Part shown: piece by piece, positions 14,837 to 24,136 of the stretch
Numbering within the stretch: the first letter of the stretch is position 1
Layout: each line of letters opens with the position of its first letter
Origin: Rhizomonospora bruguierae
GTDB taxonomy: Bacteria > Actinomycetota > Actinomycetes > Mycobacteriales > Micromonosporaceae
Direction: 5' to 3'
NCBI RefSeq assembly: GCF_018397995.1
Contig: NZ_BBQH01000012.1
Coordinates: forward strand, 14,144 to 78,143
DNA: 64,000 nucleotides
Notes under the pieces: generated by a model
Database searches by the model: none
Told to the model about the DNA's origin: nothing
What the model saw: only the letters and a program-made list of their open reading frames with translations
Translations under genes and position numbers: made by a program

Positions 14837-16909
14837 TCAGGAGGCCCTGGCCGCCTTCCGCGCCGCCTTGGTGGCGGACTTGGTGGCGGCGCTCTTCTTC
14901 GCCGGCGCGGTCTTGGCCGCCTTCTTCGCGGCGGCCTTCTTCGCCGGTGCCGCCTTCGTCGACTTGGCCGGGGCCGCCTTCTTGGCCGCCGCGGTCCGCG
15001 TCGCCGCCTTCGTCGCCGTCGTGGCGCCGGTGCGCTTGGCGACCGTGGTCTTCTTCGCGGCCGCCTTCCGCGCGGTGGTGCTCTTGGCGGCGGTGGTCTT
15101 CTTCGCCGTCGCCTTGGCCGCCGTCTTCTTGGCGGTGGCCTTCGTCGCCGCCGCGGACTTCTTGGCGGCCGTGCTCCGGGCGCCGGCGCTCTTGGCGGCC
15201 ACGCTCTTCGACGGGGTCGCCTTCTTCGCCGTCACCTTCTTGGCGGCGCCCTTCGTCGGCGTCGCCTTGGTGGCGGCCGTCTTGCGGGTGGTGGCCTTCT
15301 TGGCCGGCGCCGTCTTCTTGGCGCCCGCCGCCTTGCGGGCCGTCGACTTCGCCGCCGACGGCCGCGAGGTCGTCGACTTGGTGGACCGGGCGGTACCCGT
15401 CGCCGCGGTCACGGTCTTCTTCACCGGCGCCTGCGCCGCCACGCTGGACCGCGCCGCTGCCTTCCGCCCGGCGGCCTTCGTGGCCGGCTTGGTCGCCGCC
15501 TTCTTCGCCGCCGGCCGCGTGCTCGACGCCCGCGTACCGGTCGCCTTCGCCGCGGTACCCCGAGTCGCCGCGGCCTTCTTCGCCGCCGGCCGCCCGGCCG
15601 CCTTGCTCCCGGCGGCCTTCGTCGCCGACTTGCTCGCGGTCGCCTTCGACGCGGCCTTGCTCGCCGTCGCCTTCGACGCGGCCTTCGACGCAGCAGCCTT
15701 CGACGCAGCGGCCTTGGTCGCCGTCGCCTTCGACGCAGTCTTGCTCGCGGCGGCCTTGCTCGCAGCAGCCTTCGACGCAGCAGCCTTCGAGGCGGCCTTG
15801 CTCGCGGCGGCCTTCGACGCCGTCGCCGTTGACGCAGCCTTCGACGAGGCAGCCTTGGTCGCAGCCGCCTTGGCGGCAGCCTTGCTCGCGGCGGCCTTGC
15901 TCGCCGCCGCCTTCGACGCGGCCTTCGACGCGGCAGCCTTGGTCTCAGTGGCCTTCGACGCGGCCTTGCTCGCCGCGGCCTTCGTCGCGGCCTTCGTCGC
16001 GGCAGCCTTGCTCGCGGCCGCCTTCGACGCCGTCGCCTTCGACGCGGCCTTCGACGCGGTGGCCTTGCTCGCGGCCGCCTTCGAGGCGGCCTTCGTCGCG
16101 GTGGCCTTGGTCGCCGTCGCCGTCGCGGCGGCCTTCGACGCGGCCTTGGCCGGCGCGGTGGCCTTGCTCGCCGCGGCCGGGCGACCCGTGGTCTTGCCCG
16201 CGGCCTTGCCGGCCGCCTTCCCCGCGGCCTTCGCGGCGGCCGTGCGGGTGGTCGCGGCCGGGCGCGTGGCGCTGGCCCGGCCCGCCGAGCGGGTCGCGGT
16301 CGCCGGGCCGGTCGCCTTGCCGGCGGCGCTCTTCGCCGCCCGCGCCGTCGTGCCCCGCGCCGCCGACGTGCCGCCCGTCTTGCCGCGCGCAACGGCGGTC
16401 TCGCGAGCCGCACCCGTCGCGGCCGCCCGCGCGGAGGTGCGCTTGGCGCTCGTTGCCTTCGCGACGGCAGCCCGGCCGCTGACCGCCCGCTCGCCCGTGC
16501 CCGCGGCCGCGGCCTTCGCCGCCGTCTTGGTCACCGCCGTCTTGGCAGCGGCGGTCTTCGCGGCGGCGATCTTCGTGGCCGCCGTCTTCGTGGCCGCGGC
16601 CCTCGTCGCCGTCTTCGTCGCCGGGGTCGTGCGGGTGCCGGCGGCGCGGCGCCTGGCGGTTGCCGGCTTGCTGCCCGCGGCGCCGGATTCCACGCCGGCC
16701 CTGTCGTTGTCATCCCCCGGGGTGACGGCGTTCTCCACGGACCCGGTCCCGTTCAGCACCGCACCCGCGACGCTCTTGACCGCGTCGATGGAATCGCTCG
16801 CGGAACCGTTCGCGGAACCGTTCGGCGGCATGGCGAGGTCGGCCGGGGCGGCTTCGGTGGCCGGGCGTCTGCCGGCCGGTTCGGTGGTGGGCCACTCGGT
16901 TGCGGCCAT
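14837..16909 (-). CDS. Lys/Ala-rich histone H1-like repeat protein
   Basis: A 690-aa very basic low-complexity protein. Residues 1-75 are mixed and acidic (contain a GDDNDRAG stretch). The rest is Ala, Lys, Thr and Ser: roughly residues 240-423 (plus-strand 15640-16190) are tandem A-A-S-K-A / A-T-K-A units, while the C-terminus shifts to PAKKAA-type units like bacterial and eukaryotic H1 tails. Such proteins coat DNA or RNA through their lysines and are disordered. No HU fold is present, unlike mycobacterial HupB, which has such a tail after an HU domain. The ATG has an ideal AGGAGG site 9 nt upstream, so translation is strong. The DNA repeats are prone to length change. Confidence 0.8.
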   Translation of the reverse strand: MAATEWPTTEPAGRRPATEAAPADLAMPPNGSANGSASDSIDAVKSVAGAVLNGTGSVENAVTPGDDNDRAGVESGAAGSKPATARRRAAGTRTTPATKTATRAAATKTAATKIAAAKTAAAKTAVTKTAAKAAAAGTGERAVSGRAAVAKATSAKRTSARAAATGAARETAVARGKTGGTSAARGTTARAAKSAAGKATGPATATRSAGRASATRPAATTRTAAAKAAGKAAGKAAGKTTGRPAAASKATAPAKAASKAAATATATKATATKAASKAAASKATASKAASKATASKAAASKAAATKAATKAAASKAASKATETKAAASKAASKAAASKAAASKAAAKAAATKAASSKAASTATASKAAASKAASKAAASKAAASKAAASKTASKATATKAAASKAAASKAASKATASKAASKATASKSATKAAGSKAAGRPAAKKAAATRGTAAKATGTRASSTRPAAKKAATKPATKAAGRKAAARSSVAAQAPVKKTVTAATGTARSTKSTTSRPSAAKSTARKAAGAKKTAPAKKATTRKTAATKATPTKGAAKKVTAKKATPSKSVAAKSAGARSTAAKKSAAATKATAKKTAAKATAKKTTAAKSTTARKAAAKKTTVAKRTGATTATKAATRTAAAKKAAPAKSTKAAPAKKAAAKKAAKTAPAKKSAATKSATKAARKAARAS

Positions 16910-17894: not shown

Positions 17895-18611
17895 TCAGCA
17901 GGGGCCGTTGCAGGCCAGTACCTTCAGCCGGTCCAGGGCGCCGTTCCACTGGTTCGAGTCGCCGGCGAACGGGCCGGAACTGGAGTACTGCCAGAACGAC
18001 CAGGTGGGCGCGCCCGCCGGCAGGGTGCCGGGCGAGCTGGCGTACCGCGCGAGCCACAGCGGCGAGTTGGCCCAGAAGCCGGAGTAGTTGCCGGTGCAGG
18101 TCGTCCACCAGTCGGTGGTGGTGTAGATGACCGCCCAGCGCCCGGTCCGCGCGTGGTACTGGTTGATGAACGCGGAGATCCAGCTGCGCATCGACGCCTG
18201 GGAGAGCCCGTAGCAGGTGGCGCCGTATGGGTTGTACTCGATGTCCAGCGCGCCCGGCAGCGTCTTGCCGTCCTTGGACCAGCCGCCGCCGTGGTTGACG
18301 AAGTAGTCCGCCTGGGCGGCGCCGCCGGAGTTGCCCGGCAGCGCGAAGTGGTACGAGCCGCGGATCATGCCCACGTTGTACGACCCGTTGTACTGCTGCG
18401 CGAAGTAGGGGTTGGTGTAGCCGGTCCCCTCGGTCGCCTTGACGAACGCGAAGCGCGATCCGGCGTTCCACTGCGCGGTCCAGTTCACGTTGCCCTGGTA
18501 GCTGGAGACGTCCTGCCCGTAGGTCACGGTGGCGGCCGAGGCGGGTACGCCGGCCAGCAGGCTGCCGCCGATGGCCAGGGCCACCGATAGGCAGAGCGTG
18601 CGGATCCTCAT
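17895..18611 (-). CDS. Secreted GH25 lysozyme (N-acetylmuramidase)
   Basis: A 238-aa exported glycoside hydrolase family 25 enzyme that cuts the MurNAc-GlcNAc bond of peptidoglycan. Signal peptide residues 1-26 (cleavage at ASA-AT). The catalytic face is visible: Asp34 in YGQDVSSYQG, and the D-x-E pair Asp123/Glu125 in GALDIEYNP. Other GH25 marks are FAFVKATEGTGYTNPYF, GSYHFA and WSFWQYSSSG. The ATG at 18611 has AGGAGG six nt upstream. The size is catalytic domain only, with no wall-binding module. It diverges from the glucanase operon, and the shared 270-bp region carries LacI-type palindromes, so it could belong to the same regulon. Confidence 0.93.
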   Translation of the reverse strand: MRIRTLCLSVALAIGGSLLAGVPASAATVTYGQDVSSYQGNVNWTAQWNAGSRFAFVKATEGTGYTNPYFAQQYNGSYNVGMIRGSYHFALPGNSGGAAQADYFVNHGGGWSKDGKTLPGALDIEYNPYGATCYGLSQASMRSWISAFINQYHARTGRWAVIYTTTDWWTTCTGNYSGFWANSPLWLARYASSPGTLPAGAPTWSFWQYSSSGPFAGDSNQWNGALDRLKVLACNGPC

Positions 18612-18747
18612 GTGCTCCTCCTTGGGGGTGAGGGAGGGACGAAGAATAGCTCCGTACATCTGAGCAGAGGCGTAACTAACTTTCAAGAGATACCCGTCGA
18701 ATTGTTGCGGAACCGGCGCGGGCTGGGCGGATACGGACCGGGCCGGC

Positions 18748-18763
18748 GGGAGAGCGCTCCCCC
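18748..18763. promoter_or_regulatory. Secondary GAGCGCTC palindrome
   Basis: The core GAGCGCTC (18752-18759) sits in a larger imperfect inverted repeat with GGCCGG arms (about 18739-18772). It shares the AGAGCGCT core with the perfect operator 60 bp away, so it may be a second, weaker LacI site between the lysozyme and glucanase genes. Confidence 0.4.
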
Positions 18764-18813
18764 GGCCGGCCCGCACCATTGACAGCGGTCTTATCAGCGG
18801 TCATCGTGTCGTT

Positions 18814-18831
18814 TGAGAGAGCGCTCTCTCA
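18814..18831. promoter_or_regulatory. LacI-family operator before the glucanase operon
   Basis: A perfect 18-bp palindrome, TGAGAGAGCGCTCTCTCA, lies 51 bp upstream of the GH16 start. The central CG step flanked by symmetric arms is the hallmark of LacI/GalR operators. The same 12-bp core recurs before the lacI-type gene at 23058-23069. Confidence 0.75.
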
Positions 18832-18881
18832 CCGGCCGGTCATCGACCGGTAACCGCGCCGACACACACGAAGGAGCAGCC

Positions 18882-21059
18882 ATGGATGGGGCTGTCCCCC
18901 CGCCCGTCCGGCGGCGCCGGCCGCTACACCGATGGCGCCTGGCCGCGCTGTCCACCGCCCTGGCCGCGCTGCTGGGCTCGTACCTGACGGTCACCGCGCT
19001 CGTCGCGGACGCCGCCGAGACCCTGCTCTCGCAGGGCCGCCCGGCGACCGCCTCGTCCACCGAGAACGCCGGCACCCCGGCCTCCGCCGCGGTCGACGGC
19101 AACACCTCCACCCGCTGGTCCAGCGCGTTCAGCGACCCCCAGTGGATCCAGGTGGACCTGGGCTCGTCCGTCCCGATCACCCGGGTGGCGCTGACCTGGG
19201 AGGCCGCCTACGCCACCGACTTCACCATCGGCGTCTCCACCGACGGCGCCACCTTCACCACCGTCAACACCACCGTCGGCGGGACCGGCGGCAACCAGAG
19301 CATCACCGTCGCCGGAACCGGCCGGTACGTACGGCTGACCGCCACCAAGCGGGCCACCCAGTACGGCGTCTCGCTCTGGGAGTTCCAGGTCTTCGGCGGC
19401 GGCACCACCGCCGGGTGCGGCACCGCCAACGCCGCGCAGGGCCGGACCGCCACGGCGTCCTCGACCGAGTCGGCGGCGTTCCCCGCGTCCGCGGCGGTGG
19501 ACGGCGACGCGGGCACCCGTTGGTCGAGCGCGGCCGCCGACCCGCAGTGGCTCCAGGTCGACCTGGGCAGCACCCGGTCGATCTGCGGGGTCACGGTGAA
19601 CTGGGAGGCCGCCTATGGAACCGCCTTCCAGATCCAGACCTCCGCGAACGCCAGCACCTGGGCCTCGATCTACTCCACCACCACCGGCACCGGCGGCGTA
19701 CAGAACCTCACCGTCTCCGGCAGTGGCCGGTACGTGCGGCTGTACGGCACCGCGCGGGCGACCCAGTGGGGGTACTCGCTGTGGGAGTTCCAGATCCGGG
19801 TGGGCGACGGCGGCACCACGCCGCCGACAACCACCCCGCCGACGACGACCCCGCCGACCACTCCCCCGCCGGGCGGCAGCGTCCTGCTGTCGTACCGGAA
19901 GCCGGCGGTGGCCTCCTCCGAGCAGAACGACGTGAACTGCAACCCGTGCACCGCCGACAAGGCGTTCGACAACGACCCGGCGAGCCGCTGGGCGACCAGT
20001 TCCACCACCGGCTGGGTCGACCCGGGCTGGATCTACGTCGACCTGGGAGCCACGGCGACCGTCACGCAGGTCGTCCTCCAGTGGGACCCGGCCTACGCGA
20101 CGGCGTACCAGATCCAGGTGTCGCCGAACGCGTCCACCTGGACGACGATCTACTCCACCACCGCGGGCAAGGGCTTCAAGGAGACCCTGAACGTCTCCGG
20201 CACCGGCCGGTACGTACGGATGTACGGCACGGCGCGGGTGGGCCCGTACGGGTACTCGCTGTGGGAGTTCAAGGTCTACGGCACGGGCGGCGCGCCGACC
20301 CAGCCGCCGGCCGGCCCACCGGACCCGGCGTTCCCCGCCACCCGGCTGGTGTTCAGCGACGAGTTCAACGGCGTCGCGGGCAGCAAGCCCGACCCGTCGA
20401 AGTGGACGATCGACCCGGGCACCGGGCAGAACAACGAGGTCCAGTACTACTCGAACAACAACAACGCGTCGATGGACGGCACCGGCTCGCTGGTCATCGA
20501 GGCGCGCCGGGAGACCGCCGGCGGCCGCGACTACACGTCGCACCGGATGAACACCGGCGGCCACTTCACCTTCCAGTACGGGCGGGTCGAGGCGCGCATC
20601 AAGGTGCCGAAGGGCAACGGGCTGTGGCCCGCGTTCTGGATGATGGGCGCCGACTTCCTCACCGGGCGGCCGTGGCCGTACAACGGCGAAATCGACATCA
20701 TGGAGGTACTCGGTCGCAACACAGTGGAGAGTTACTCCACCCTGCACGCGCCCGCCTACAACGGCGGCGGCGGGTACGGGCAGAAGTACAACGCGCCCGG
20801 CGGCGCCGACTTCGCCAATGACTTCCACGTCTGGGCCGCCGAGTGGGACAGCACGGGCATCACGTTCAAGGTGGACAACCAGACGGTCTTCGTGGCCAGC
20901 AAGGCGACCGTGGAGTCCACCCGCGGGCCCTGGGTCTTCGACCACCCGTTCTACCTCATCCTGAACCTCGCGGTGGGCGGGGACTTCCCCGGCCCGGTGG
21001 ACGGCACGACGCCGTTCCCGTCCCGGATGCTCGTCGACTACGTGCGGGTCTACCAGTAA
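18882..21059 (+). CDS. Secreted GH16 endo-beta-1,3-glucanase with three discoidin/CBM32 modules
   Basis: A 725-aa exported multi-domain glucanase. The ATG at 18882 follows AAGGAG. A long signal peptide or anchor (basic residues 8-19, then a hydrophobic stretch) ends about residue 45 (VADAAE). Three F5/8-type C modules follow at about 48-173, 180-305 and 332-470, each with the (T/S)RW(S/A) and SLWEF(Q/K) signatures. A PTTT/PP linker separates modules 2 and 3. The GH16 domain (about 480-725) has the catalytic motif GEIDIMEVLG with Glu603, Asp605 and Glu608, as in laminarinases. It should hydrolyse beta-1,3 or mixed-linkage glucans outside the cell while the modules bind sugar. First gene of a probable three-gene operon under LacI control. 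Confidence 0.93.
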   Translation: MDGAVPPPVRRRRPLHRWRLAALSTALAALLGSYLTVTALVADAAETLLSQGRPATASSTENAGTPASAAVDGNTSTRWSSAFSDPQWIQVDLGSSVPITRVALTWEAAYATDFTIGVSTDGATFTTVNTTVGGTGGNQSITVAGTGRYVRLTATKRATQYGVSLWEFQVFGGGTTAGCGTANAAQGRTATASSTESAAFPASAAVDGDAGTRWSSAAADPQWLQVDLGSTRSICGVTVNWEAAYGTAFQIQTSANASTWASIYSTTTGTGGVQNLTVSGSGRYVRLYGTARATQWGYSLWEFQIRVGDGGTTPPTTTPPTTTPPTTPPPGGSVLLSYRKPAVASSEQNDVNCNPCTADKAFDNDPASRWATSSTTGWVDPGWIYVDLGATATVTQVVLQWDPAYATAYQIQVSPNASTWTTIYSTTAGKGFKETLNVSGTGRYVRMYGTARVGPYGYSLWEFKVYGTGGAPTQPPAGPPDPAFPATRLVFSDEFNGVAGSKPDPSKWTIDPGTGQNNEVQYYSNNNNASMDGTGSLVIEARRETAGGRDYTSHRMNTGGHFTFQYGRVEARIKVPKGNGLWPAFWMMGADFLTGRPWPYNGEIDIMEVLGRNTVESYSTLHAPAYNGGGGYGQKYNAPGGADFANDFHVWAAEWDSTGITFKVDNQTVFVASKATVESTRGPWVFDHPFYLILNLAVGGDFPGPVDGTTPFPSRMLVDYVRVYQ

Positions 21060-21142
21060 CTCAGGCCGGGGGGCCGGCGGCGTGGCGCCGAACCGCCGCC
21101 GGTCCCCCTCTCACCAAGGTCCGCTTCATCAGGGGAGGCTTC

Positions 21143-22408
21143 ATGAAACGGATACCCGTCCTGGCCGCCGCCACCGCGCTGGCCGCCCTGCTCGGCACGT
21201 ACGCCACCACGCTCGCCCAGGCCGCGGAGACGCCGCTGTCGCAGGGGCGCCCCGCCACCGCTTCGTCGGTCGAGAACGGCGGCTCCCCCGCGTCCAACGC
21301 GGTGGACGGCAATCTCGGCACCCGGTGGTCGAGCGCGTTTAGTGATCCACAATGGATTCAGGTGGACCTGGGCGGCACCGCCACCGTCAATCGGGTCGTG
21401 CTCGCCTGGGAGGCGGCCTACGCGACGGCGTACACCGTCCAGACGTCCACCAACGGCAGCGCGTGGACCACCATCTACAGCACCACCACCGGCACCGGCG
21501 GCACGCAGACGCTGAACGCCAACGGCAGCGGTCGGTACGTGCGGGTCAGCACCACCAGGCGCGCGACGCAGTACGGCGTCTCGCTGTGGGAGTTCCAGGT
21601 CTTCGGTACCGGCGGCGGCACGACCACCCCACCGACCATCCCGCCCGGAGCGGTGCGGGTGGCCGAGTTCCTGGCCGACTGCCCGTACTCCCACCAGTTG
21701 CCGGACGACCCGATCATCTTCCCCGGTCTGCCCGGCGCCTCGCACATGCACAGCTTCTTCGGCAGCGTGGTCACCAACGCGTACACCGATCTGGCGGCGC
21801 TCCAGAACGCCGCCACCACCTGCAACCCATCGGTCGACAAGTCCTCGTACTGGGTGCCGACGCTGTACGTGAACGACGTGGCGGTGCAACCCACCGGTAC
21901 CACCTTCTACTACCTCGGTGAGGGTGTGCGAGACGACGTGATCGCGCGCATCCAGCCGTTCCCACCGGGGCTGCGGGTCGTGGCGGGCAACGCGACGGCG
22001 ACCGGCCCGGAGGACAACACCATTTCGCGCTGGTCCTGCCTGCACCACGGCGAGGTGAACCCGGGCAAGGACTTCGTGAACTGCCCGGCCGACGGCCTGC
22101 TTGAGTCCTATCTGGACTTCCCGCAGTGCTGGAACGGCCGGGACCTGGACTCGGCGGACCACAAGAGCCACATGGCGTACCCGGTGAACGGCGACTGCCC
22201 GGCCACCCACCCGGTGCCGGTGCCGAAGCTGCGCCAGGTGCTCCGGTACCCGGTCACCGGCGACCCGGCGCGGCTGCGGCTCTCCTCCGGGCCCGGGTAC
22301 ACGATGCACGGTGACTTCTTCAACGCGTGGCCCGCCGACGAACTGGCCCGGCGGGTCAACGACTGCCTCCGGATCATCGTCAAGTGCGGTGCCGACGGGC
22401 GTCCGTGA
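21143..22408 (+). CDS. Secreted discoidin-DUF1996 protein
   Basis: A 421-aa exported protein. ATG at 21143 behind GGGGAGG. Signal peptide to about residue 28 (LAQAAE). Residues 30-155 are an F5/8-type C (CBM32) module nearly copied from the first module of the glucanase upstream (shared LSQGRPATASS and FSDPQWIQVDLG). After a TTTPP linker, residues 170-421 are a DUF1996 domain: ASHMHSFFGS, SSYWVPTLYV, QCWNGRDLDS and DHKSHMAYPVNGDCPATHP are its marks. DUF1996 proteins are mostly known from fungi and saprophytic actinobacteria and have no assigned activity. The conserved His/Asp/Cys set suggests an enzyme or metal site. Context points to glucan or fungal wall handling. Confidence 0.88.
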   Translation: MKRIPVLAAATALAALLGTYATTLAQAAETPLSQGRPATASSVENGGSPASNAVDGNLGTRWSSAFSDPQWIQVDLGGTATVNRVVLAWEAAYATAYTVQTSTNGSAWTTIYSTTTGTGGTQTLNANGSGRYVRVSTTRRATQYGVSLWEFQVFGTGGGTTTPPTIPPGAVRVAEFLADCPYSHQLPDDPIIFPGLPGASHMHSFFGSVVTNAYTDLAALQNAATTCNPSVDKSSYWVPTLYVNDVAVQPTGTTFYYLGEGVRDDVIARIQPFPPGLRVVAGNATATGPEDNTISRWSCLHHGEVNPGKDFVNCPADGLLESYLDFPQCWNGRDLDSADHKSHMAYPVNGDCPATHPVPVPKLRQVLRYPVTGDPARLRLSSGPGYTMHGDFFNAWPADELARRVNDCLRIIVKCGADGRP

Positions 22409-23031
22409 TGCGCTCGCGCCTGCTCTGGGTCTCGATCGCGACGGCGGTGCTGGCCGGTGCGCTGGTGGCGGGTTGGACCGTCCACCGGCCCCGGCCGGCC
22501 CGCCAGGCGGCTCCACCGCCGGCGGTCGCGTCCCCGGCCGCCGCGGGCGCCTTCGGGGCCACCGACGTCGCCTGGCTCCAACTGATGATCCCGATGGACG
22601 AGCAGGCGCTCGCCCTGCTGGACCTGGTGCCGTCGCGCACCACCGACCGGGCGGCGGCCGAGGTCGCCGCCCGGATCGGCGCCGGTCACCGCGCCGAACT
22701 GGCCGACCTGCGCGCGCTGCGCGACCGGGCCGGGCTGCCCGACACCAACGTGCACGCCGGGCACGACCTGCCGGGCATGGTCACCCCGGCCGAACTGGCG
22801 GAGATCGGCCGGCACCGGGGCTCGGCGTTCGTGACACGGTTCACGTCGACCCTGCTGGAGCACCTGGACCAGGGCGTCCTGGTGTGCGCCGGGGAGCGTG
22901 ACGCGGGCACCGATCCGGCCACGAAAGCGCTGGCAGCGGCGGCACAGAACCGCCGCCGTGCCGACCTGGACCTGCTCGCCGGCCTGCCCGGCGGCGCGAC
23001 CGGCGGCACCCCCGGCGGCCCGGCGTCGTGA
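22408..23031 (+). CDS. Exported DUF305-like protein
   Basis: A 207-aa protein starting at the ATG that shares one base with the preceding stop (TGATG), so it is translationally coupled. An N-terminal hydrophobic segment (LLWVSIATAVLAGALVAGW) exports or anchors it. The body has DVAWLQLMIPMDEQALALLD, HRAELADLRALRDRAGL and a HAGHDLPGMVTPAEL block, which match the four-helix DUF305 pattern (often annotated in copper handling). The His and Met residues of HAGHDLPGM are typical. The usual two consecutive HHxxA motifs are weaker than in well known members. Last gene of the glucanase operon; its role beside a glucanase is unclear. Confidence 0.72.
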   Translation: MRSRLLWVSIATAVLAGALVAGWTVHRPRPARQAAPPPAVASPAAAGAFGATDVAWLQLMIPMDEQALALLDLVPSRTTDRAAAEVAARIGAGHRAELADLRALRDRAGLPDTNVHAGHDLPGMVTPAELAEIGRHRGSAFVTRFTSTLLEHLDQGVLVCAGERDAGTDPATKALAAAAQNRRRADLDLLAGLPGGATGGTPGGPAS

Positions 23032-23057
23032 CGGCACCGTGGGTCGACGGGGGCAGA

Positions 23058-23082
23058 GAGAGCGCTCTCCGGGTGCTATAAC
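23058..23082 (+). promoter_or_regulatory. Operator and leaderless promoter of the lacI-type gene
   Basis: The perfect palindrome GAGAGCGCTCTC (23058-23069) covers the expected -35 region. A -10 box TATAAC (23077-23082) lies 7 nt before the ATG at 23090, so the transcript should start at the start codon. A repressor bound here would block its own promoter. Confidence 0.7.
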
Positions 23083-23089
23083 TGGTCGC

Positions 23090-24136
23090 ATGGCGAGGTC
23101 GACCGGTGGGGGACGGCCGCCCACCCTGGAGCAGGTGGCGGAGTTCGCGGGCGTTTCCCGGGCGACCGTTTCGCGGGTCATCAACGCGGTACCGACGGTC
23201 GACCCGAGCATCCGCGAGAACGTGGAGCGCGCCATCGCGGCCATCGGCTACGTGCCGAACATCGCCGCCCGCTCGTTGGTCAACCGGCGCACCGACTCGG
23301 TCGCCCTGGTCATCTCCGAGCCCGGCAGCCGGCACTACGACGCCGACTTCCTCAACCGCATCTTCACCGACCCCTACTTCGGCCGGCTCACCGCGGGCGC
23401 CCAGGAGGTGCTCCGCCCGCAGGGCGTCCACCTGGTCATCATCCCGGCCGACGCGCCCGCCCACCACCAGGTCCTGCGGTACCTGCGGCAGGGCCACGTC
23501 GACGGGGTGCTGCTCATCTCCAGCCACGTGGCCGACCCGCTGCCCAGGCAGGTCACCGACCTGCACGTGCCGGCCGTCCTCTCCGCCCGGCCCGGCCAGC
23601 CCATCCCGATCAGCTTCGTCGACACCGACCAGCGGGCCGGCGCCCGCCTCGCCGCCGAGCACCTGCTCGCCCGCGGCCGGCGCCGCGTGGCCACCATCGC
23701 CGGGCCGCAGGACATGCCCGCCGGCGAGGACCGGCTCAGCGGCTTCCGCTCCGCCCTGGCCGCGCACGGCATCCACGACGTGCCCGCCGTGCCGGGCGAC
23801 TTCACCCAGGCCAGCGGCGAGGCCGCCGCCCGCGACCTGCTCGCCCGCCACCCCGACGTGGACGGCTTGTTCGTCGCCAGCGACCTGATGGCCGTGGGCG
23901 CCCTGCGCACCCTCGCCGAACTCGGCAAGCGGGTCCCCGAGGACATCGCCGTGGTCGGCTTCGACGACAGCAGCGCGGCACTGGCCTGCCGCCCGCAACT
24001 CACCACGATCCGCCAACCGGTCGAGGAGATGGCCGGCGAGATGGCCCGCCTGCTCCTGGCCAGCATCCGCGAACCCGGCCACCTGGCCCGCTCGGTCATC
24101 TTCAACTCCACCCTCGTGGAGCGGGAGTCGGCCTGA
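23090..24136 (+). CDS. LacI-family transcriptional regulator
   Basis: A 348-aa LacI/GalR repressor. The HTH is at residues 9-30 (PTLEQVAEFAGVSRATVSRV), followed by the hinge helix region PNIAARSLVNRRTDSV. The rest is a periplasmic-binding-protein-like sensor (VDGVLLISSH, FVDTDQRAGARLAAEHLL, VDGLFVASDLMAVGAL, VVGFDDSSAA) that should bind a sugar. The ATG at 23090 is fixed by the TATAAC box. An operator-like palindrome lies directly upstream and a longer version lies before the glucanase operon. So the likely job is to repress glucan degradation until an oligosaccharide (for instance laminaribiose) appears. The inducer is inferred from the neighbours. Confidence 0.92.
   Translation: MARSTGGGRPPTLEQVAEFAGVSRATVSRVINAVPTVDPSIRENVERAIAAIGYVPNIAARSLVNRRTDSVALVISEPGSRHYDADFLNRIFTDPYFGRLTAGAQEVLRPQGVHLVIIPADAPAHHQVLRYLRQGHVDGVLLISSHVADPLPRQVTDLHVPAVLSARPGQPIPISFVDTDQRAGARLAAEHLLARGRRRVATIAGPQDMPAGEDRLSGFRSALAAHGIHDVPAVPGDFTQASGEAAARDLLARHPDVDGLFVASDLMAVGALRTLAELGKRVPEDIAVVGFDDSSAALACRPQLTTIRQPVEEMAGEMARLLLASIREPGHLARSVIFNSTLVERESA

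Follow-up and report, generated by a model that had tools for sequence, protein, structure and literature searches.

In Thermobifida fusca, a site for the LacI-family regulator CelR lies ahead of an operon encoding a transporter, a beta-glucosidase and CelR itself (PMC3377646, in excerpt), and a site of CebR of Streptomyces has been described as well (PMC4898821, in excerpt). The same excerpts of PMC3377646 report TGAGAGCGCTCTCA palindromes in Catenulispora acidiphila before lacI genes, a transporter operon and two GH16 genes for possible endo-1,3-beta-glucanases, as well as related palindromes in Streptosporangium (near lacI and CBM32 proteins) and Thermobispora; the palindrome was, in other words, already in print in 2012. 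GlyR3 of Clostridium thermocellum (celC-glyR3-licA), as presented in the abridged text of PMC5483248, is a LacI-type protein encoded inside a glucanase operon that represses its own gene and is released by laminaribiose. Here we examine a stretch of 64,000 nucleotides of Rhizomonospora bruguierae (Micromonosporaceae; assembly GCF_018397995.1, contig NZ_BBQH01000012.1, positions 14,144 to 78,143; hereafter the window), in which a predicted GH16 glucanase gene is followed by genes with the domains of unknown function DUF1996 and DUF305 and by a lacI-type gene. Comparison with other genomes makes it likely that this cluster is one cassette of a dispersed beta-1,3-glucan regulon under the LacI protein encoded at 23090-24136, with GAGAGCGCTCTC as its operator. 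The parts of the cassette and its neighbour are listed below; protein domains (GH25, GH16, F5/8 type C, DUF1996, DUF305, LacI) were assigned by Pfam search.

18814-18831 (core 18817-18828), no strand: putative main operator of the GH16 operon, TGAGAGAGCGCTCTCTCA, a perfect 18-bp palindrome located by sequence search
23058-23069, no strand: putative operator before lacI, GAGAGCGCTCTC, the 12-bp core, 20 bp ahead of the lacI ATG at 23090
18750-18761, no strand: hybrid site GAGAGCGCTCCC, one mismatch, between GH25 and GH16, 67 bp from the main operator
18882-21059, plus strand: predicted secreted GH16 endo-beta-1,3-glucanase with three F5/8 type C (CBM32-like) domains (Pfam; structure match)
21143-22408, plus strand: F5/8 type C and DUF1996 protein, predicted to be secreted (Pfam)
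22408-23031, plus strand: DUF305 protein of a divergent subfamily seen beside DUF1996 (Pfam, sequence comparison)
23090-24136, plus strand: putative LacI-family repressor of 348 amino acids, recognition helix GVSRATVSRVIN (Pfam, structure match)
17895-18611, minus strand: GH25 lysozyme, divergent neighbour (Pfam)

All three sites reported in a first-pass annotation of this DNA, i.e., a perfect palindrome ahead of the GH16 operon, its core ahead of the lacI-type gene and a weaker relative between GH16 and the divergent GH25 gene, are indeed present. With two mismatches allowed, the window contains 13 matches to GAGAGCGCTCTC, a count that includes shifted readings of one palindrome, versus 5.6 (standard deviation 2.6) in shuffled sequences, of which 1 in 100 reached 13. 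The best solved relative of the GH16 protein is the beta-1,3-glucanase 2hyk (E 4.2e-67). Read by eye, TTGACA (18779-18784) and CATCGT (18802-18807) form the presumed GH16 promoter, with the main operator just downstream, and TATAAC (23077-23082) is the presumed element of a lacI promoter that the operator at 23058-23069 would overlap.

Whether the motif is abundant at random positions, as the first-pass annotation had asked, was checked genome-wide, and the outcome favours a function: the 6.7-Mb genome contains 10 perfect GAGAGCGCTCTC cores, and a backwards control gave none. With one mismatch allowed there are 21 matches versus 5 for this control, and most of the signal is therefore carried by the perfect cores. 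Summed over 41 genomes, perfect cores number 205 versus 6 for the control. The cores are not a chance occurrence. They do not, however, form the self-contained regulon that had been proposed, as 8 of the 10 perfect cores are located outside the window, most of them next to further beta-glucan genes or a second lacI:

Contig 10: SBP_bac_5 gene, followed by transporter genes and preceded by a lacI whose product has a different type of helix
Contig 10: GH55-like gene, the protein matching 4pew at E 2.4e-151
Contig 16: second lacI, 55% identical to the window LacI, with the perfect site upstream
GH16-GH158 gene: 1162 amino acids, three F5/8 type C domains, stretches matching GH16 endo-1,3-beta-glucanase (3dgt, 7eo3) and GH158 (9oro)
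GH1 gene
Second GH55-like gene: two F5/8 type C domains, the protein matching 4pew at E 1.1e-248
Second F5/8 type C-DUF1996 gene
Contig 55: GH16-CBM6 gene

The family of 4pew, named only "putative secreted protein" in the PDB, is presumably that of the GH55 laminarinase of Streptomyces SirexAA-E. The genes at the cores are linked by the theme of beta-1,3-glucan, with the GH1 and transporter genes being ones that could serve other sugars, and laminari-oligosaccharides would therefore be the likely inducer. On contig 16 the layout of the window is repeated, a glucanase gene with an operator being followed by a lacI with an operator of its own; this lacI adjoins the GH16-GH158 and GH1 genes, and the locus carries three perfect cores. 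The regulon thus appears to be dispersed over the genome, the window cluster being one of several gene sets under the same switch.

For the cassette itself 34 related loci were compared, L065 and L078 being one locus; 16 distinct loci possess a GH16 gene of at least 70% identity. Each of these has a site with one mismatch or none ahead of GH16; in 14 there is a perfect core, L066 and L081 having one-mismatch sites only. In 15 of the 16 loci a window-type LacI is encoded behind GH16 on the same strand, preceded by operators, and DUF1996 lies between GH16 and lacI in 14 (the exceptions are L066 and L088). Gene order and operators are kept in Asanoa, Phytohabitans, Dactylosporangium, and Micromonospora. 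The full order of the window, including DUF305, is found in L081, and in Phytohabitans and Micromonospora sp. HM5-17 the DUF305 gene is located on the other strand, past an operator. This comparative evidence lends good support to the earlier suggestion of a LacI-type regulator that would act on palindromes ahead of both the GH16 operon and lacI.

The window LacI scores 52.1 bits against PF00356 (cut-off 27) and 122.5 bits against Peripla_BP_3 (cut-off 26.5), and its nearest solved relative is 5ysz (E 2e-81), which we take to be CelR of T. fusca. The recognition helix of 5ysz is GVGRGTVSRVIN, and the GVGRGTVSRV stretch of CelR and CebR is not present in the window LacI, which has GVSRATVSRV instead. 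Likewise, the CelR/CebR operator TGGGAGCGCTCCCA does not occur at the three window sites, of which two carry GAGAGCGCTCTC and the weak one is CelR-type in one half only. Among lacI genes of relatives, 16 of 53 have a site within 450 bp upstream, a count that omits L029, L030 (which has a hybrid site), L033, L100, and L101, where the helix-turn-helix was missed by the search pattern. All 12 of the SRAT or SRST proteins with an upstream site have one of the GAGAGC type, all 3 of the GRGT or SRGT proteins one of the GGGAGC type, each with one mismatch, and L097, with helix SPAT, has a GAGAGC site. Judged from these sequences, the helix SRAT (as opposed to GRGT) is associated with GAGAGC (as opposed to GGGAGC) half-sites. 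In a tree of 58 proteins the window LacI and its contig 16 paralogue fall into a clade of 33 (support 0.998), outside which the SRAT protein of L032 is placed; 11 GRG-type proteins cluster together, apart from this clade. The alignment groups were defined by residues 13-15, so that the helix difference between groups is by construction. On contig 98 the own genome also encodes a LacI of the GRGT type, and GGGAGCGCTCCC cores are located approximately 1.3 kb and 5 kb from it.

A number of observations weigh against assigning these sites to the window LacI. A strict promoter scan of the regions upstream of GH16 and lacI detected no promoter at either; the earlier statement that the core covers the lacI promoter rests on TATAAC as read by eye. 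No site was found within 450 bp for 37 of the 53 lacI genes, including 8 of the 10 GRGT ones, three Oerskovia species supply 6 of the 12 agreeing SRAT or SRST cases, and only 1 of the 16 close loci has a lacI-proximal site (L066, one mismatch). A third LacI of the own genome, on contig 29 (L054:7427-8437; helix SRATVSRVVN), lies outside the clade and has no GAGAGCGCTCTC site nearby. In favour of the window-type LacI, the number of cores per genome follows the score of the best LacI (Spearman 0.77 for 41 genomes, 0.86 for the 25 genomes of the family), although the genomes are kin and these correlations overstate their independence. Genome G032, on the other hand, lacks cores altogether, although its LacI relative (helix SKST) reaches E 5.6e-103. 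Conversely, G010 (10 cores) as well as G008 and G023 (9 each) are without a close relative of the window LacI, and 69 of the 205 cores occur in the 33 genomes without a LacI relative of E 1e-100 or better. With one third of the cores in such genomes, repressors other than the window-type LacI therefore probably read the motif in some of them. It is conceivable that this also applies to R. bruguierae, where the main reader of the GAGAGCGCTCTC sites could be another LacI, either the contig 16 paralogue, with its helix SRATVSRVIN identical to that of the window LacI, its perfect upstream site and its three-core locus, or a repressor of another clade, the window LacI being local or redundant. We consider this possible but unlikely, as the retention of the window-type LacI behind GH16, with operators before it, in nearly all close loci argues for a function of its own.

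The sites, the gene content, their conservation and the association between helix and half-site that we observe can be combined into a mechanism with the window LacI as regulator. This protein, of a clade related to CelR/CebR, would bind GAGAGCGCTCTC as a dimer and repress the GH16-DUF1996-DUF305 operon via the palindrome at 18814-18831, aided by the hybrid site at 18750-18761, and its own gene via 23058-23069. It would probably also act at other promoters with the same core, sharing sites with the 55%-identical paralogue of contig 16, and would be released by short beta-1,3-gluco-oligosaccharides derived from fungal cell walls or laminarin. In the close loci that have no lacI-proximal site, lacI ends the gene row and may be autoregulated via the operon promoter. 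Such sites reappear in more distant relatives, and the separate lacI operator of the window is, by this comparison, a local arrangement seen there too.

The hybrid site at 18750-18761 combines a left half GAGAGC with a right, CelR-type half GGGAGC. Among 22 one-mismatch sites from 27 related loci, 13 are this same hybrid, versus 2 of 36 expected if single changes were equally likely; these loci were hand-chosen, leaving out L065 (= L078), L094 and L096 (near copies of L095), L097, and, for having no site, L074, L076, and L093. Ten of the 13 lie within 21-164 bp of a perfect core, and in the own genome the hybrid makes up 3 of 11 one-mismatch sites, each beside a perfect core, at 67, 88, and 1510 bp. 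Because the hybrid recurs at GH16 promoters, also in loci where GH25 was not found, it is best assigned to the GH16 promoter, and on this comparative basis it most likely serves GH16 as an auxiliary operator. A role of the weak site in an RNA hairpin or terminator was rejected, as 18725-18790 does not fold unusually well (z -1.07, matched by 27 of 200 shuffles) and a terminator search of the region found none. A fixed helical phasing of paired operators was rejected as well; their spacings (21, 67, 70, 87-88, and 163-164 bp) have no common phase by eye and looping is, therefore, not claimed.

Instead of an auxiliary operator, the hybrid could be a two-input operator, read by both the window repressor and the CelR/CebR-type protein of contig 98, which would join beta-1,3- and beta-1,4-glucan signals. 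Both kinds of core occur in the genome (10 GAGAGC and 14 GGGAGC, GGGAGCGCTCCC), the GRGT-type LacI has GGGAGC cores near its gene, and the hybrid is overrepresented in the counts given above. However, a change of A to G is mild in a G+C-rich genome and may only weaken the site for one repressor, and the loci are kin, so that the hybrid counts are not independent. We regard a two-input function as rather improbable and continue to treat the site as an auxiliary operator of GH16. Two hybrid sites elsewhere in the genome may be mentioned. On contig 16, a short solute-binding-protein frame (L049:7577-8170; 198 amino acids), covering only the start of its Pfam model, has a hybrid site at its 3' end and ahead of a GH55-like gene, an arrangement that looks like a sugar-transport gene truncated by rearrangement. 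At the GH16-CBM6 locus of contig 55, the hybrid site GGGAGCGCTCTC (L052:9599-9610) precedes an MFS transporter frame by approximately 36 bp.

The first-pass annotation held that one repressor jointly controls the glucan and peptidoglycan hydrolases through the sites between GH16 and GH25, which is very improbable: although the weak site is located between both genes, approximately 139 bp ahead of the start codon of GH25, GH25 was found in 0 of the 34 related loci (one of them counted twice; tblastn at E 1e-8), the identical hybrid recurs at GH16 promoters without it, and no GAGAGC-type site with one mismatch or fewer was seen around any of 22 GH25 homologues of other genomes, some with short flanks, the only related site being a CelR-like one-mismatch site 923 bp upstream of the homologue in L175. 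These counts led us to reject GH25 as a member, and the regulon probably does not include the lysozyme gene.

The DUF1996-DUF305 pair and the hybrid operators are the less ordinary parts of the system. Pairs within 6 kb number 10 (7 within 1.3 kb; one DUF305 counted twice), are present in 8 of the 19 genomes having DUF1996 and recur across genera. For DUF1996, 30 of its 44 places were examined; a perfect core lies upstream of the domain, at no more than 1.5 kb, in 7 of these and downstream in 2. DUF305 in general was rejected as a regulon member, with a perfect core in 0 of the 30 best-scoring DUF305 loci, which are of the common kind. A motif comparison of DUF305 proteins (17 loci given, 3 common-kind ones unmatched) showed that PHH is absent from all 11 matched DUF1996-linked proteins, 9 of which keep HxGHxxPGM, and present in all 3 matched common-kind ones. 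The absence of PHH from the linked proteins weakens a copper-chaperone role after CopM, as far as this is set out in the excerpts of PMC4335983. In an alignment of 28 DUF1996 domains, H23 is invariant, H21, D52, H160, and H163 are each conserved in 90% or more, and a C-terminal HxD is present in the aligned domains reaching that far. The predicted DUF1996 model is confident (predicted local distance difference test, pLDDT, 86.5; predicted template modelling score, pTM, 0.84), but a solved fold was not recovered, with 0 of 193 Foldseek matches at E ≤0.001 and 0 of 994 chains at Z ≥2; the highest-ranking Foldseek entries (GlxA, a copper radical oxidase; probability 0.08) are noise. Fungal DUF1996 proteins are, according to parts of PMC4738358, vacuolar and involved in stress responses, a role that does not account for the bacterial form with its carbohydrate-binding domains. 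Quite tentatively, DUF1996 and its DUF305 partner might constitute a so far undescribed secreted system that attacks or binds beta-1,3-glucan and is controlled by such a repressor, in which DUF1996 would be a metal-site enzyme (HxH, HxxH, and the C-terminal HxD) of a fold without solved relative, served by a DUF305 subfamily that lacks PHH and mostly has HxGHxxPGM.

Elsewhere in the window, a frame of 690 amino acids on the minus strand (14837-16909) consists mostly of lysine, alanine, threonine and serine repeats and presumably resembles the histone H1-like tails of actinobacterial DNA-binding proteins.

For the digestion of beta-1,3-glucan in this family of actinobacteria, a trait that may bear on the attack on fungal walls, our results provide a specific operator, a clade of repressors and a list of candidate targets, and they give two domains of unknown function a testable context. 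A full-text search for the 12-mer returned PMC3377646 as the only related paper. Searches on AGAGCGCTCT, on LacI with laminarin or laminaribiose and on Micromonospora beta-glucan gave, among the matches listed, no other title or abstract start naming such a regulon, and it is not described in the portions consulted of PMC4052901, PMC12772271, and PMC4898821. The sites of C. acidiphila have the same core as those of the window; the excerpts of PMC3377646 call them CelR-related and place them near few genes and, supplements aside, draw no beta-1,3-glucan regulon, link between helix and operator or connection with DUF1996. CelR and CebR belong, like the window LacI, to the LacI family and share the palindrome centre GAGCGCTC with it, but differ in helix (GRGT versus SRAT) and half-site (GGGAGC versus GAGAGC), and the candidate targets of the window LacI resemble beta-1,3-glucan enzymes more than beta-1,4-glucan ones. 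The separation from the cellulose-type regulon would come down to one base per half-site and the matching helix residues, and R. bruguierae has a separate GRGT-type protein and 14 GGGAGC cores besides the window-type LacI. GlyR3, in the abridged text of PMC5483248, differs in its operator (TGAACGCGCGTACA) and in its host, a clostridium, but it is likewise encoded together with glucanase genes in a similar arrangement and, with laminaribiose as its inducer, offers a functional precedent for the regulation proposed here.

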